DNA from: a virus
DNA: 25,027 nucleotides
Virus record (IMG/VR): IMGVR_UViG_3300048107_000066
Coordinates: 1 to 25,027 of that record
Strand: one strand, 5' to 3'
The position numbers and the translations under genes are program-made. The notes under the pieces are model-generated. The model did no database searches and had not been told where the DNA came from. It worked only from the letters and a program-made list of their open reading frames with translations. How positions within the stretch are numbered: the stretch's first letter is position 1; each line of letters starts with the position of its first letter. Shown here in pieces: positions 17,896-25,027 of this stretch.

Positions 17896-19355
17896 TACAC
17901 CACGCCCATTTTGCCTTGATTATTCATAGCGTTATTTATTATTTGAGTAATTGTACCTTTTCTTGAAAGTAGCAACTGGTCAAAGCCAGTAGCATCAACT
18001 GTATTTATATTAAAGTTTACTGTAGTACCCATCCCTTGTCCTTTCGTGTGATCTATTACAGTTTCATTTGGATGTAACATAGCCATAAAACCACCTCTAC
18101 CATCCATACCACCTGCTCTTGCACCTGAACCAGTGAAACCACCACCATCAGCACTAGGAACTTTAAGGCTTGGAAAAATATCTGAAAGACCACCAGTAAT
18201 TGTACCAGTAATAGATTTAACTAAAGGTGCAATTATCATTAATCTAATAACTTCATTAATAACTTGATTTAAAACGCTTTTTGCTAAATTACCAAAATTT
18301 AAAAATTCTGCATTTGTAAAATCAAAAAACTTTCTGAAAGAGTTAGTTAATTGTCCTTCAACTGTATTTGAAAAATTTTCAACCACTTTTATCTGATCTT
18401 CAACAGCTTTTTTATCTCTATCTTTAGCCTTCTTTATATTTGCTAAACGCTCTTGTTCAGCTAGAAGTTTTTTTTCTTTTTCTTCTAACAATAAAATTTC
18501 GTCTTTTATTGCTTTGGCGTTATGTTTTCTATGGGTCATACCATTAGCAATTAGTCTATTTTGTTCTATTAATTCTTCATTTAATTTTTCTAAATCATGC
18601 CTTACTAATGTTAAACCTTTTTCTTCAGCAGTTATCAAGCCTAATGCTTCAAAAGTATCTAGTACACTAATTGATAAACTTATAAAAGCAGCTTGTAAGG
18701 GTACTAATATTTGCCTTTTTAATCTATTCATAGTGTCGTTGAATAATTCAGCTTGAGCAACAGTCTCATTTGAAAATATACCAGTAGCAGAAGCTGCTAA
18801 TTCTTCCATTGCAGCAGCACCATCTTTAGAAATATTTTTCAAATCAACCATTTTTGAACCAAAAAGACCTGCTAAATTTGCAGATTTTTCTGATTCACTT
18901 CCTACTTTTTCTAATGCTTTGAATGTTTCAACAAATAATTTTTCAGCAGTTTTGGTTTTACCACCTGCTTCAAAAATAGAGATACCTAGCTCGTCAAATT
19001 GTATTTTTGCTAAACCTCTGCCTTGTTCTGCTTCACCAATACCTTTAGAAAAGAATTTTAACGCTTTATTAAATTTTTCTGTTTCAACTCCAGCTTGTTG
19101 TGCTGCAAACTGATACCTTTGCAAAAATTCAGCAGTCACACCAACTGCTACAGCAGTTTTACCAATTGAATCTGCAACTTGTAATGCTTCGTTACCAAAC
19201 TGTACTATCTGTCTTATTGCAAATGCACCAGCAAATGCACCAGCTAATTTTTTCATAGCTGATTGCGTAGAATTAATATTTTTATTTACCTTACCAAACG
19301 CTTTACCAGTTTGATCTTGTCCTTTAATCCTTAATTTATAATCAGTTCCTGCCAT
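17895..19355 (-). CDS. Tape measure protein, short
   Basis: 486 aa. A small-residue hydrophobic N-terminal part (38-50, 64-75), a helical middle, a strong coiled coil (about 245-330, Glu/Lys/Leu-rich), a hydrophobic segment (MIIAPLVKSITGTITGGL, 373-390), a Gly-rich stretch (403-422) and GGFMAMLHPNETVIDH (421-436) at the C-terminal end, the last being common in lambda-type tape measures. It sits right behind the G/GT frames. At about 1.5 angstrom per helical residue the tail would be roughly 70 nm, about half of lambda's. The gene start overlaps the end of the -1 frame. Confidence 0.87.
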   Translation of the reverse strand: MAGTDYKLRIKGQDQTGKAFGKVNKNINSTQSAMKKLAGAFAGAFAIRQIVQFGNEALQVADSIGKTAVAVGVTAEFLQRYQFAAQQAGVETEKFNKALKFFSKGIGEAEQGRGLAKIQFDELGISIFEAGGKTKTAEKLFVETFKALEKVGSESEKSANLAGLFGSKMVDLKNISKDGAAAMEELAASATGIFSNETVAQAELFNDTMNRLKRQILVPLQAAFISLSISVLDTFEALGLITAEEKGLTLVRHDLEKLNEELIEQNRLIANGMTHRKHNAKAIKDEILLLEEKEKKLLAEQERLANIKKAKDRDKKAVEDQIKVVENFSNTVEGQLTNSFRKFFDFTNAEFLNFGNLAKSVLNQVINEVIRLMIIAPLVKSITGTITGGLSDIFPSLKVPSADGGGFTGSGARAGGMDGRGGFMAMLHPNETVIDHTKGQGMGTTVNFNINTVDATGFDQLLLSRKGTITQIINNAMNNQGKMGVV

Positions 19356-19832
19356 TGTTTATTTGCCTATTCTTTTCTTCTAAATATGCTAACCATCCAG
19401 TAAATTCAGATAAAGACATTTTTTCTTCTAATTCAGCTACTGTTACTCCCAACAATTCTGCTAAATAGTATCTTGCAAATAAATCTTTATCTTCCCTTAC
19501 TTTTTTAGTTGTTCCTCTACTGAAGGTGCTGACATTATTTCTGTAGCTACTCTAGCTAAGACATCTTTATCAACGCCATTCATCAAGGTTGTTTTATCAC
19601 CTATATCAAATACTTTATTACCTTCAGCATCAAGTGCTTTGTGTATTAAGCAATAAGCCATCAACGCCACATCATCGTCTTTTGCATATTTTTGCAATTT
19701 AGACATTTCCGCTAATGTTAATGGCTTTGCATAAACTTTAAGTATTTCACCATCGTCACTCCATTCTGGTATTTCAATTTCTTTAATATCTAAAGAATTA
19801 AAATGTGCTTTAGCTTTATCAATAACTTTCAT
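19342..19832 (-). CDS. Tail assembly chaperone GT-like frameshift product
   Basis: A -1 slip at 19506-19500 adds 52 residues (VREDKDLFARYYLAEL ... ending NNGRN, stop 19344-19342), giving about 163 aa. The -1 frame has no usable ATG near its start, is open exactly from the heptamer onward, and has the T-domain shape LSEFTGWLAYLEEKNRQ. Its stop lies 9-13 nt inside the tape-measure start. This is the conserved lambda G/GT arrangement. The extension is not an independent gene. Frameshift efficiency cannot be read from sequence. Confidence 0.82.
19497..19832 (-). CDS. Tail assembly chaperone, G-like product (0 frame)
   Basis: 111 aa, starting MKVIDKAKAHFNSLDIKEIE, rich in charge, with a helical middle (LTLAEMSKLQKYAKDDDVALMAYCLI, 38-63). 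Position between tail tube and tape measure is that of lambda G. The last codons CTA AAA AAG TAA carry an in-frame A-AAA-AAG slippery heptamer, so a fraction of ribosomes should continue into the T-like frame. Role: binds the tape measure and recruits tail-tube subunits; not in the mature virion. One nucleotide separates it from the upstream tail-tube gene. Confidence 0.85.
   Translation of the reverse strand: MKVIDKAKAHFNSLDIKEIEIPEWSDDGEILKVYAKPLTLAEMSKLQKYAKDDDVALMAYCLIHKALDAEGNKVFDIGDKTTLMNGVDKDVLARVATEIMSAPSVEEQLKK
19500..19506 (-). promoter_or_regulatory. Programmed -1 ribosomal frameshift site A-AAA-AAG
   Basis: The heptamer is in the correct phase (X-XXY-YYZ) for the 0 frame and the 0-frame stop TAA follows directly. 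A purine-rich GAGGAAC lies about 6-12 nt upstream and could act as an internal Shine-Dalgarno stimulator. No strong downstream stem is obvious. Confidence 0.82.
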
Positions 19833-20358: not shown

Positions 20359-20805
20359 TTACCTCGCTACATCAGGTGCTTGTTCCTGATTAAAATAATT
20401 AACATTAAATGTTAAGGTGGCATAGCCAACTGGCTTTTCACCTTCTGCATTATATTCTATTTCGGTACTTTCTAAAAAAGTATCTTTCGCTAAATTGTTC
20501 AAAGTTGGGTCAGCAGCTATAGCTGTTTCTACTTCTTTGCATATTGTATCAACTGAATCATCGAAATTACTTGTTGCTTTTACATAACATTCTATAGCTA
20601 CTGATAAATTTCTTTCTAATAATCTATTTGTGCCTATTACAATAGGTTCAGATGTTTCTGATTTTGTGTAAATCAATAATGAAGGCAAACTAGCTGTTTC
20701 TAAGGGGTAAACTCTTGATTCAAATACATTTGAACCAGTTGTAGTTAAACCAGTTAAGACAGTGCCTAAACGCTCTCTAATCTGCTGTCTGACATGGTTA
20801 GCCAT
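20359..20805 (-). CDS. Tail terminator, lambda gpU-like
   Basis: 148 aa, alpha/beta. Opens VRQQIRERLGTVLTGLTTTGSNVFESRVYPLETASLPSLL in pieces that match the tail-completion family (early helix, then VYPLE...LPSLLIY). Later NLSVAIECYVK and ATLTFNVNYF strands are typical. Gene order (connectors, terminator, tube, G/GT) matches lambda FII-Z-U-V. Role: caps the tail tube and joins it to the head connector. Starts in an overlap with the upstream connector paralogue. Confidence 0.78.
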   Translation of the reverse strand: MANHVRQQIRERLGTVLTGLTTTGSNVFESRVYPLETASLPSLLIYTKSETSEPIVIGTNRLLERNLSVAIECYVKATSNFDDSVDTICKEVETAIAADPTLNNLAKDTFLESTEIEYNAEGEKPVGYATLTFNVNYFNQEQAPDVAR

Positions 20806-21158
20806 TATAATTCCTCTAACATTAAAGAAGTAAAACCAGTGTTGTCCTTTTGCACATTAACAATACTATAAGTTTTAGCTCCAACTAAAGTATTACCATC
20901 AACATCTTTATAAGCAGCTACTGCTAAAGTGTTGCCATGTTTGACACTTGGTACATCTACAGATCGACAATAAGCAATTGGTTTTGTGCCTTCAACACCT
21001 ACTCCAAATTCTTCTTCAAAATATTCATTATTTAAAATAAGTTGTATATTTGATGTTTGACCACTTGTGTTTGTAAAAGTAGCAGTACGCCCATGACCAA
21101 AATCAGCATCAAGATAAGAACTCATATCTTCTTCAGTTTCTAATCTATATTGAGACAT
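20805..21158 (-). CDS. Head-tail connector paralogue B
   Basis: 117 aa, mainly beta. It shares with the adjacent 134-aa protein: SYLD...GHG.TATF (14-28), I.LI...EYF, V.VEG.KP.A...S.DVP...H...L.V.A, and NVQ.DNTGF..L.LEE at the C-terminus, roughly 40% identity by eye. This form corresponds to lambda FII-type head-tail joining/stopper proteins. TAATG overlaps both neighbours. Likely part of the head-completion ring; which of the pair fills which layer is unknown. Confidence 0.7.
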   Translation of the reverse strand: MSQYRLETEEDMSSYLDADFGHGRTATFTNTSGQTSNIQLILNNEYFEEEFGVGVEGTKPIAYCRSVDVPSVKHGNTLAVAAYKDVDGNTLVGAKTYSIVNVQKDNTGFTSLMLEEL

Positions 21159-21562
21159 TATTGTTCCTCTAAAATTAATTCTATGAAACCAGTGTTATCT
21201 GGTTGTACATTTTTAATTACAAAAGTTGTTTCCGCTTTTAAAACAGTGCCTTTATTAGTTGTGATTGCATTAACAATTAAACGATCTTCATGCGATATAT
21301 AAGGCACATCAGAAGATTTTACTAACGCTTTTGGTTGAAAGCCTTCGACTGCAACACTATTTCCAGCAATATCAAAATATTCTTGGTCAATAATTATGTT
21401 TATATTTTCTCTGTTGCCTGAATCTATATCAAACCAAGAATCTATAAATCCAACTCTTTGATCGAATAAAGAATTTTGTACTTCAAAAAATGTAGCAGTT
21501 ACACCATGTCCAGTAGTTGAATCAAGGTAAGAATTAAAATCTGCTGCACTTTCTAACGCCAT
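21158..21562 (-). CDS. Head-tail connector paralogue A
   Basis: 134 aa. Same scaffold as the 117-aa neighbour with an insertion of about 20 residues (about 29-49, including FDQRVGFIDSWFDIDSGNRE) before the INIIIDQEYF strand. Shared elements: SYLDSTTGHGVTATF, DQEYF, VAVEGFQPKALV, SSDVPYISHEDRL, NVQPDNTGFIELILEEQ. Tandem duplication with divergence is the simplest explanation. Lambda FII-like head-tail joining role is inferred from position and form. Confidence 0.7.
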   Translation of the reverse strand: MALESAADFNSYLDSTTGHGVTATFFEVQNSLFDQRVGFIDSWFDIDSGNRENINIIIDQEYFDIAGNSVAVEGFQPKALVKSSDVPYISHEDRLIVNAITTNKGTVLKAETTFVIKNVQPDNTGFIELILEEQ

Positions 21563-21846: not shown

Positions 21847-24411
21847 CTAGGTAGATTTACAGAATGACACAGCGTGTCTTACAGCAATATCACAAGATTG
21901 TAATGCTACTATTCTCACAGTTCCTGATTTCGAGTGCGTGAAAGGGTCAACAACGATGTCTAAACCACCGAAGAAACCAACTAACAAGTCACTGAAATTA
22001 CCAAACAACATAACACCATTAGTAATTTGATTACTAACGACTGCATTGTAACCATTGATCTCACCATCAACTGCAATAAATTGTGCAGTGTTAGTGGCTT
22101 TTTCAGTAGTTTTCAATGTACCAAATGTTGAAGGATTAACTATGTAAGCTAAGTTACCTAGTAAAGCATTATCAGCACTTACAGCAGTTTCCATTGCTAC
22201 AACTTCAGCAAAAGTTGGTGCAGTATCTGTGCTAAATGCTTGAGTGTTAATACCAGATTGGTTAATAATTCCAGTAGGATTACCACTTGAACCAGAACCA
22301 CTTATAGCAACATTATCAATGTGTGTAGCCATTGCAGCAGCTAAATCATTTCTTATTAAGTTCTCAACATCTAAAGATGATTGAATTAATAATTGACGAG
22401 TAGCTTCTGTGTGAGCTCCTAAAGTTTTAGGTGTCATTGAGACATTACCAACTGTCATTTCAGATTCAGAAGAATCTCCGCCTTCTGCACTAATAAAAGC
22501 AGCAGTAGAACCAGCAGTTTTCTTTGGTATTTTGACATCACCAGTCAAACCTTGTAGCACACTAGCTAAAGGAAGCACTGCTGAATTATTTCTCAATACC
22601 TCAATAAAATCCCCACCTCTGTAATCTTCAGCTATTAAGCTGGAATCATCAGAAGAATTAAGATCACGTTGTCCCCAAGTTCTTAGAACTTCTGGTGGAA
22701 GCAGCACGCCTTGTGCAGTCTTACCATAAAGTTCACCAGCAGCTCTTGAACAATCAAATTCAAAGGCAGCATCTTCTTGTGCTTTGCGATCAGTAGGATT
22801 AGCCATTGCATTAACAGCTCTTAAAATACTAAATCTTTTAGTTTCTTTTTCGGTTAAACCGATTTCAGAAGGAGTTTCTAAAGGTTCGCTATTAGAAATA
22901 TTGTCTAATAATACACCTCTAAATTCTTCCACTGATAAACCATTAGAAATAGCTTCGTCAGCTAAATCTCTTTTGTTGTGTTGACTAGCTAGATCGAGAA
23001 TCTCTTTAGAGTTTCTTTTAAATTCAGCTTTAGCTTCAACAACAGCTTTAGATTTAACTTCATCAAGATTAATTTCTTGTTTTTCGTTTTCCATTTTTTT
23101 TACCTCTTTGTGTAAAATGTGTTGTTTATTTTCAGAACGCCCAACGCCAACTAGCCTGCTTTGATCTGCGGGCAAACTGACTGAGCTTATCTCCATAGGA
23201 GTCCAGCTTGCACGATAATAATCTTCATCCTTATCATCCATGCGTTCCAGTTTATCTACTCTGTAACCGACTGATATATTCATGCGTATACCATCTTTTA
23301 CGTCTTCAAACACTTCACGAGCTAGGGAAGATTTTCCAAATCTTACCAGTGCAATTGTTCTTTTAGCACTCTCATCCAGTTTAAATTGCTCTATCACACC
23401 TATTTGCTTAGTCATGTCATGATCTAACAAAAGTGGTGCACGACCAGATGAAATAAATTCCATATTTATATCACCTTCAGAATGTCCTAGCACTTCCATA
23501 CCAAAACTTCTTTCAACTGGTTCTTCTGACGAAACGCCAATACGAACCAATCTCTTTTCTTCGTCAATGTAAGAAGCTCTGGACAAATCAATAGTTCTAT
23601 ACTTGATAGCACCATCAATATGCCTTTCTTCTTCATCAACTATGGCTTCTTCTTCAGATTCTTCAATATCTTCCATTTCTGCCATTTCTTCTTCAACCTT
23701 TTTGAATTCAACAATTACTGAATTGTCGGTTTCAGAAACATTGAGAATATGTCTATCTTCTTTTTCAATATCCATAATTTTTACCTCATCGTTTATTGTT
23801 AAAGGTTTAACATTTGAATCTAATGATTCAAAATTTCTTATCGGGTCAATTTTTCTTAGCGTACTGAATTTATGACCAACTTCTGTATCAGTGGGTTCAC
23901 CACTTCTATAAACTTGTATTAAAGCAGCAGGGTCTTCTGCTGTACCAGTAATAGTAAGATCAGAATTAGGAATATTTATTTTCCCATCTCTTTCTATTTT
24001 GATAATCTTTCCTCTAGCTCTACCACCAGCACTATTCCAACTGACAAAGTCACCAGTTTTAAGTGCATCTGGTTCTGCTCTATTTAATTTTCTTTCATCT
24101 TCTTTTTTCATTTTTTCCACCAATCTTTTTGACCAACTAAAACCAGCATCACCACCCCATAATGCCCATGCTATTCTACCATTAGAAGGATAACCATCCT
24201 CGCCAGAACTAAATCCTTCTGCTTGTTTATCTACCTCATGTCTACTAAAAAAACTATACATTCTTTTAATAGTATCATCAGATAAATTTTCACCTGCAAC
24301 TATTTGTCTAGCTCTAATAGCACCAACTCTAGTACCACCACGACCAAATTCTTCACGCCAGTCTAAACCCTTCTGTGCTTCAGCTTTCATACCAGCATTA
24401 GGGTTAGCCAT
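21847..24411 (-). CDS. Accessory module + HK97-type prohead protease + delta domain/major capsid protein, single open frame
   Basis: 854 aa from ATG 24411 (AAGGTGGGG upstream); an ATG at 24459 adds 16 residues without support. Numbering below is from 24459. Module 1 (17-228): a helical domain with SFFSRHEVDK (68-77) and RIAWALWGGDAG (94-105), then a Tudor/HVA1 (DUF2945)-like domain starting LKTGDFVSWNSAGGRARGKI. Module 2 (229-455): acidic stretch, then protease with LLLDHD (His347), DGIRMNISVGYRV (Ser396) and MEISSVSLPAD (Glu423), the HK97 gp4 arrangement. Module 3 (456-870): charged helical delta/scaffold domain, then HK97-fold capsid (GNPTGIIN; DIVVDPFTHSKSG). Modules 2 (227 aa) and 3 (415 aa) match the sizes of stand-alone proteins, and each has its own GAGGT site and ATG in frame. 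Role: capsid assembly and maturation. Confidence 0.88.
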   Translation of the reverse strand: MANPNAGMKAEAQKGLDWREEFGRGGTRVGAIRARQIVAGENLSDDTIKRMYSFFSRHEVDKQAEGFSSGEDGYPSNGRIAWALWGGDAGFSWSKRLVEKMKKEDERKLNRAEPDALKTGDFVSWNSAGGRARGKIIKIERDGKINIPNSDLTITGTAEDPAALIQVYRSGEPTDTEVGHKFSTLRKIDPIRNFESLDSNVKPLTINDEVKIMDIEKEDRHILNVSETDNSVIVEFKKVEEEMAEMEDIEESEEEAIVDEEERHIDGAIKYRTIDLSRASYIDEEKRLVRIGVSSEEPVERSFGMEVLGHSEGDINMEFISSGRAPLLLDHDMTKQIGVIEQFKLDESAKRTIALVRFGKSSLAREVFEDVKDGIRMNISVGYRVDKLERMDDKDEDYYRASWTPMEISSVSLPADQSRLVGVGRSENKQHILHKEVKKMENEKQEINLDEVKSKAVVEAKAEFKRNSKEILDLASQHNKRDLADEAISNGLSVEEFRGVLLDNISNSEPLETPSEIGLTEKETKRFSILRAVNAMANPTDRKAQEDAAFEFDCSRAAGELYGKTAQGVLLPPEVLRTWGQRDLNSSDDSSLIAEDYRGGDFIEVLRNNSAVLPLASVLQGLTGDVKIPKKTAGSTAAFISAEGGDSSESEMTVGNVSMTPKTLGAHTEATRQLLIQSSLDVENLIRNDLAAAMATHIDNVAISGSGSSGNPTGIINQSGINTQAFSTDTAPTFAEVVAMETAVSADNALLGNLAYIVNPSTFGTLKTTEKATNTAQFIAVDGEINGYNAVVSNQITNGVMLFGNFSDLLVGFFGGLDIVVDPFTHSKSGTVRIVALQSCDIAVRHAVSFCKST
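23092..23106 (-). promoter_or_regulatory. In-frame internal ribosome site and ATG starting capsid module
   Basis: GAGGT (23106-23102), 7-nt A-rich spacer, ATG (23094-23092), in frame (residue 456). Translation from here gives a 415-aa delta-domain plus capsid protein, a normal length for HK97-type precursors. This would supply capsid subunits in excess of protease. Confidence 0.65.
23773..23787 (-). promoter_or_regulatory. In-frame internal ribosome site and ATG starting protease module
   Basis: GAGGT (23787-23783), 7-nt spacer, ATG (23775-23773), in frame with the long capsid ORF (residue 229). The spacing and sequence match the start signals of other late genes. If used, it yields a 642-aa protease-capsid protein without the accessory module. 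Confidence 0.6.
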
Positions 24412-25027
24412 CGTCATCCCCACCTTGAATATTCGCTTCCACTGGCATTTTTTGTCCAAATGGTTGATAAGCTATTTCAATACCATATTGTTTTGCTAAT
24501 TCAACTTCTTTTTGATGTTGTTCAAATAGTTCTTCAGTATCACGACCATAAGCAGCAGATATATCTGAATAAGTCATTGTGCCATTTTGCAAACCTAAGA
24601 CACTTGATTGCATTTCTTTTAAAGGGTCAATCCATTGGAAACTTCTAGGAATATAATTTACAGAATTAGCAAATTTATCAAACTTACCCATTGGTAAGTT
24701 AATATAACCAGTTGAGATTGCCATTTCTAACCAAGATTTAAAAATTGGGTCTATAAAATGTTCAATGACAAATTGTTGATATATCTGAAACATTGAACGA
24801 TCTTCTAAAGCACCTTGACGAATAGAAGAATAATTAACTGAAGTTAAATCGTTACTTAATGAGTGATAAGAAATATTTAAACCAGATGCGATTGATCTTA
24901 ATACTGAAGTAGTAAAAGATTCAAAAGCAGATGTTGGGTGGTTAGGGTCAAAAGCCTTAAAATCCATTCCAGCAGGTAATTGTTCAAAAGTTCCAGCGTT
25001 TGCTGAAGCCACTGGATTATAAGTATC
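24404..25027 (-). CDS. Portal protein, lambda gpB-like, N-terminus cut by window edge
   Basis: The last 207 residues of a frame open to the right edge; a GTG at 25012 inside it is not the true start. Key region: LPAGMDFKAFDPNHPTSAFE, then SVLRSIASGLNISYHSLSND, TSVNYSSIRQGALEDR and QFVIEHFIDPIFKSWLE, the strongly conserved C-terminal half of the lambda-type portal (Phage_portal_2). It forms the 12-fold vertex ring for DNA entry and tail attachment. The acidic end (GGDDDG) overlaps the next gene's start by 8 nt. Terminase genes are expected beyond the right edge. Confidence 0.88.
   Translation of the reverse strand, partial: DTYNPVASANAGTFEQLPAGMDFKAFDPNHPTSAFESFTTSVLRSIASGLNISYHSLSNDLTSVNYSSIRQGALEDRSMFQIYQQFVIEHFIDPIFKSWLEMAISTGYINLPMGKFDKFANSVNYIPRSFQWIDPLKEMQSSVLGLQNGTMTYSDISAAYGRDTEELFEQHQKEVELAKQYGIEIAYQPFGQKMPVEANIQGGDDDG

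Follow-up and report, generated by a model that had tools for sequence, protein, structure and literature searches.

In phage lambda, the C protein has the maturation protease as its N-terminal part, and an internal in-frame start allows its C-terminal part to be produced by itself as well. The herpesvirus UL26/UL26.5 arrangement is alike in that a protease-scaffold gene has a nested, co-terminal, scaffold-only product; it differs in that a separate transcript is used and the capsid protein is separate. Lambda C/Nu3 is a known case of nested in-frame head genes (Shaw and Murialdo 1980, cited in PMC8508860), and a tripartite capsid gene is named for Gifsy-2 in a title cited in PMC8538268. In HK97, the protease and capsid are two separate genes (PMC8508860). 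Fusions of the two are already on record, as the initial annotation of our sequence had said (PMC5513430, PMC8601537, PMC13313380, PMC8508860), and in a roseophage paper, the gene of CRP-811 figures as that of the major capsid protein, with protease and fusion unmentioned in the text (PMC12629253). Our literature search, which was poor in subscription journals, found no report of a capsid start nested within a fusion of protease and capsid; fusions and nested head genes are separately known.

We analyzed a 25,027-base virus record from IMG/VR (the window, taken at its whole length), the minus strand of which holds a head-and-tail module. The features on which the argument depends are as follows, each with its basis.

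24404 to 25027, minus strand: portal protein, C-terminal part, running off the window and overlapping the start of the fused gene (Pfam, PHROG).
21847 to 24411, minus strand: stop-free fused gene of accessory module, S78 protease, and delta domain/HK97 capsid, 854 aa (ORF reading, Pfam, PHROG 617 and 2859).
24418 to 24426, minus strand: Shine-Dalgarno (SD) sequence AAGGTGGGG for the full-length start, ATG 24411, located within the last part of the portal gene (SD energy -7.3).
23776 to 24411, minus strand: accessory module M, residues 1-212 (Pfam and structure prediction).
23783 to 23787, minus strand: internal SD 1 (J1), GAGGT 7 nt before ATG 23775, residue 213 (conservation and codon test).
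23095 to 23775, minus strand: protease module, residues 213-439 (Pfam; Peptidase_S78 324-418 = 23158-23442).
23102 to 23106, minus strand: internal SD 2 (J2), GAGGT 7 nt before ATG 23094, residue 440 (conservation, codon, and structure tests).
21850 to 23094, minus strand: delta domain and HK97-fold capsid, the predicted 415-aa capsid-only form (Phage_capsid 601-852; long helix 449-477).

With ATG 24411 as its start and the stop at 21847-21849, the fused gene has 854 codons, and a recoded stop is not needed, as the frame contains no stop. It had been proposed from the letters alone that three structural modules share one stop-free frame and that these are an accessory module, a protease, and a delta/capsid; both statements were borne out, on the minus strand from 24411 to 21847, with Pfam placing Hva1_TUDOR at residues 120-171 ahead of the two domains listed above. 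The internal starts had been put at residues 229 and 456. The sites are real, with GAGGT, 7 nt, and an in-frame ATG at both junctions, but the numbering began at a TTG (24459) chosen mechanically; counted from ATG 24411, the likely start, they are residues 213 and 440 (window 23775 and 23094). Among the internal in-frame ATGs, J1 and J2 alone have a well-spaced SD match of 5 nt, against ≤4 nt at all the others, and their SD energies (-6.9 at J1 and -7.1 at J2) are similar to that of the full-length start. The predicted 642-aa protease-capsid form would start at the first codon of the protease module. From J1 to J2 there are 227 codons, and from J2 to the stop 415. Both lengths had been given correctly, although calling them equal to those of free-standing proteins was loose: separate protease and capsid genes measure 176 and 530 aa in FP_Epona and 185 and 513 aa in Dulem virus 34. 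Rfam and tRNA scans of the window gave no matches.

Two further observations concern other genes of the minus strand. The tail assembly chaperone ORF (19350-19832) ends CTA AAA AAG TAA, with an A AAA AAG slippery run before the stop, and its -1 frame is open to near the tape-measure start; the slippery run together with the open frame makes a programmed frameshift of the lambda G/GT type likely. At 20805-21562, two adjacent genes match the Phage_attach/PHROG 82 head-closure family as a tandem paralogue pair.

The single frame with S78-type protease and HK97-fold capsid matches PHROG 617 (E 1.9e-139, residues 270-852), and in Pfam, Peptidase_S78 scores 25 bits (cut-off 21) and Phage_capsid 142 bits. 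H331 and S380, which we take to be the putative catalytic residues of the S78 protease, are invariant in 33 relatives. The model of the capsid domain matches the R4C capsid 8gta (E 5.7e-19), with HK97 proheads among the top fold matches, and the profile match to 8gta has an E value of 4.5e-73. The R4C virion shell consists of 415 capsid subunits from a homologous gene (PMC10276861). The solved R4C chain spans only residues 362-629 of the 629-residue product, and the protease and delta domain are thus missing from the mature shell. A true polyprotein would account for this: the full-length chain alone would be made, its protease would cut itself and free M and delta after co-assembly, and the SD-ATGs would be remnants of the fusion. 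The R4C chain is without its first 361 residues, as cleavage would give, and proteolytic release also yields mature capsid; the chain is compatible with cleavage alone too and does not discriminate between nested starts and a polyprotein. That papers call such genes simply fused proteins (PMC5513430, PMC8508860) also fits a polyprotein.

Relatives bear on the same point. The family set of 161 ORFs was drawn from phage isolates, viral contigs, and two cellular assemblies; the window's fused protein matches that of CRP-811 at 57%. Protease and capsid lie in one open frame in 161 of 161, never separated by a stop codon, which a polyprotein would share. A sequencing artefact merging genes is ruled out, as the common protease-capsid frame recurs in ORFs across numerous assemblies and isolates. 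The accessory module belongs to the same frame in 111 of 113 and is split off only in L093 and in Roseobacter phage CRP-823 (L162), through frameshifts. The L093 frameshift lies downstream of J1. In CRP-823, a 1-nt T insertion relative to CRP-821 (L161) falls between module M and J1, at position 2200, and leaves J1 (GAGGGccgcaccATG) intact downstream of the frameshift. Since the frameshift precedes an intact J1, the full-length chain looks dispensable in CRP-823, barring a sequencing error in the extra T; that this phage would be unable to make the chain by ordinary translation counts against a polyprotein. A scan of genome contigs for the family gave two loci only. One close relative, L180 (CACEDS010000004.1, SAR86 AG-390-L11), sits in a SAR86-labelled assembly, which may be a hint of the host or a co-sorted phage.

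Module M is made up of a helical domain (residues 1-110), the Hva1_TUDOR domain (23899-24054), and a disordered linker (193-212). A PDB profile search with it gave no matches, and its predicted fold had no PDB match at E≤0.001, the best being Tudor/CAP-Gly/SH3-like barrels (best E 0.03-0.1). Five loci (L026, L044, L045, L049, and L067) are without module M; in these, the gene begins right behind the portal and retains J1 20-40 codons in. In five others (L120, L122, L127, L139, and L145), module M, helical and TUDOR parts alike, is fused to the portal C-terminus, as confirmed by Pfam for the portal plus TUDOR of L122. Because it is also found on portal C-termini, module M is, by its distribution in these sequences, a mobile head-associated module that moves between head genes. 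In L010, L019, L035, and CRP-821, another domain stands in place of the TUDOR half and always ends ahead of J1; it has a weak DUF5824 match in the first three, and the CRP-821 sequence is similar by eye. The L035 version (L035:3162-6245) is 1028 aa long, with ∼120 extra residues in its N-terminal module (YYYCVNHSGMGG) that resemble a cupredoxin by eye and to which Pfam gives no match.

The internal sites themselves were assessed by a synonymous-shuffle test, in which the protein was kept fixed, the codons were resampled, and the SD pairing upstream of the ATG was compared, with p values combined by Stouffer. Observed and shuffled pairing were -7.67 and -3.51 kcal/mol at J1 (38 representatives, p 8e-21) and -5.48 and -2.84 kcal/mol at J2 (59 representatives, p 2.5e-18); these p values overstate, as the sequences are related and not independent, and the safer argument is the contrast with control in-frame ATGs of the same genes, which have no bias (-1.83 versus -2.05, n = 602; -1.88 versus -2.12, n = 870). 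The shuffles and control ATGs rule out a chance SD-ATG. One fetch pattern contained the J2 peptide MENEKQEI, a possible selection bias; with stricter thinning and loci not fetched via that peptide, the J2 signal remains (p 6.6e-8, 37 representatives), which eliminates this bias as its source, and J1 in the same re-test is weaker than in the full set but clear (p 4e-8, 15 representatives). Codon usage carries the signal directly: Glu is encoded by GAG at 84% in the J1 SD versus 19% elsewhere, and at the J2 SD, GAG stands at 67% versus 27% and AAG at 79% versus 38%. When all ATGs of the protease-capsid part are ranked by SD strength, J2 comes first in 21 of 40 divergent representatives, against an expectation of 2.5, and J1 in 13 of 26, against 1.2. 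The peptide upstream of J2 varies (KEVKK, TKVKI, FKEIK, RKEDT, QRSDP, or IRGAE directly before the Met, and also IEKEETA), and an SD at the correct distance persists despite the changed peptide and codon phase. These comparisons support the internal SD-ATGs as true nested starts and not chance. Remnants of a fusion should decay, yet the SD pairing stays above what synonymous resampling would give, both in divergent lineages and where the codon phase has changed. Compared with the remainder of the ORF, the RNA at J2 is far more open (mean 88th percentile of openness, p 5e-12), which likewise speaks against a polyprotein, and we regard that explanation as quite unlikely.

AlphaFold confidence is <50 at residues 193-272 and 413-453, around J1 and J2, consistent with disordered linkers there, and in the same model the delta helix starts at residue 449. 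SD-like sites that fall exactly in interdomain linkers could also act by programmed pausing, slowing ribosomes between domains for co-translational folding without any initiation. Pausing would make an ATG at fixed spacing unnecessary, yet the J2 linker has an in-frame ATG in 161 of 161 ORFs, including lineages that lack the SD, and the RNA at J2 lacks structure, as it does at genuine starts; we consider pausing very improbable.

The two internal starts differ in reach. The capsid start J2 spans most of the phrog_617 family, including VP882, phiHAP-1, Persinger, PPpW-3, RcRhea, and R4C. In S-CBS1/3, S-LBS1, L131, L148, and L150, the ATG is kept at J2 and the SD is absent; several, but not all, other starts in those contigs are also without an SD. 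The protease start J1 is limited to the subfamily of the window and a few others. By anchor, 73 of the 108 full-length loci have the J1 ATG, and 35, among them Roseobacter phage CRP-811, have no ATG at the scored position, a count in which the anchor missed an SD-ATG in a few loci (L065/L070 type). All three starts have an SD in 71 of the 108. The expectation that SD and ATG are kept in relatives is thus borne out for the capsid start across most of the family and for the protease start in a subfamily only; the fused frame does occur with the motif lost, in the lineages lacking the J2 SD and the 35 loci without a scored J1 ATG.

This distribution is what would be seen if J2 alone were used, with J1 weak or vestigial and two forms made. 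J1 is missing in CRP-811 and others outside its subfamily, and its RNA is not clearly unstructured, openness there being a trend only (p 0.07). Within the subfamily, though, no codon signal is stronger than that of J1, and J1 is retained where module M has been lost. Use of J2 alone is therefore, in our estimate, unlikely.

We consider it highly probable, from comparisons among relatives and from codon choice, that the locus comprises nested, co-terminal, in-frame genes whose three products arise from three starts, each with its own SD, much as the initial annotation had suggested. Ribosomes starting at 24411 would make the full-length M-protease-capsid (854 aa), those starting at 23775 the protease-capsid (642 aa), and those starting at 23094 the delta-capsid (415 aa). 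We infer that the capsid-only form, delta plus capsid, would be the bulk shell precursor, like a conventional HK97-type precursor, and that the longer forms would co-assemble via the common C-terminal capsid domain, bringing protease and module M into the prohead in minor amounts. There, the protease would cut off the delta domain and itself. The product ratio would be set by relative initiation and not by a stop codon. In the window, the three starts have SDs of similar strength, so the SD alone does not predict an excess of capsid. In CRP-811 and CRP-821, the full-length start is without an SD (0.0) and J2 is strong (-8.2 and -8.4), which favors capsid-only as the major product in those two phages.

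If nested starts are indeed used, the widespread genes for "one large fused capsid protein" make two or three proteins, with the capsid precursor starting mid-gene, and this would explain how a several-hundred-subunit shell (415 in R4C) escapes an equal number of proteases. The lambda C/Nu3 principle would be extended to the capsid protein itself, with testable predictions at the codon level. Synonymous codon choice can statistically reveal nested in-frame starts, which gene callers leave unreported.

Unrelated protease-capsid fusions were compared at the same boundary. The protease boundary carries the best or second-best internal SD-ATG in Stenotrophomonas S1, Bordetella PBb002, a Helicobacter prophage, and Pseudomonas Y8, and likewise in the unrelated fusions of Arthrobacter Circum, Arthrobacter Maggie, and MD8. 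The fraction with SD ≤ -4 at the junction versus other ATGs is 0.63 versus 0.33 for the Circum type and 0.73 versus 0.26 for the S1 type, positional figures that may be inflated because one fetch pattern each spanned the junction, and 0.69 versus 0.18 for the MD8 type. Codon-level selection at the junction is significant among these in the Circum type only (p 0.004); Maggie-type fusions gave no codon signal with five representatives, which are too few (p 0.87). In the unrelated fusions, the pattern is present in weaker form, and its generality is a lead, not a result. Whether protease-capsid fusions of tailed phages (S78 with HK97 capsid, S78 with Mu-type capsid, the Arthrobacter Circum type, and ClpP with capsid) are nested genes as a rule seems to us evenly poised; in that case, the capsid start would have been repeatedly kept or regained, and the window's lineage would have added the protease start after gaining its N-terminal module. 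The database "major capsid protein" of such phages would then be a minority product.

Among described systems, the same fused architecture is found in PHROG 617, the Arthrobacter AM/AU/AN, Rhodococcus CF, and Rhodobacter RcC clusters, and Roseobacter CRP-811; those genes differ in being annotated as single fusion proteins, with an internal start unmentioned in the papers we consulted. HK97 gp4 (protease) and gp5 (delta and capsid) share the module order and capsid fold. Gifsy-2 and gp5 of Pseudomonas phage MD8 also have protease, scaffold/delta, and capsid in one frame, and MD8 has an SD-ATG at the protease/scaffold boundary (RMQEFAH before it, MPEALK after), which is the second-strongest SD-ATG only and where codon selection is not significant; their protease is of the ClpP type and there is no accessory TUDOR module, whereas the protease of the window is S78. 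With lambda C/Nu3, the window gene shares an internal in-frame SD-start, J2, under codon-level selection, for a co-terminal product that would exclude the protease. In lambda, the nested product is the scaffold, and another gene encodes the capsid, whereas here the short product would contain the capsid, and the window gene has two internal starts, with protease-capsid and delta-capsid as the predicted products. By this analogy, the window gene resembles C/Nu3 in how it would work, yet is not that gene pair.
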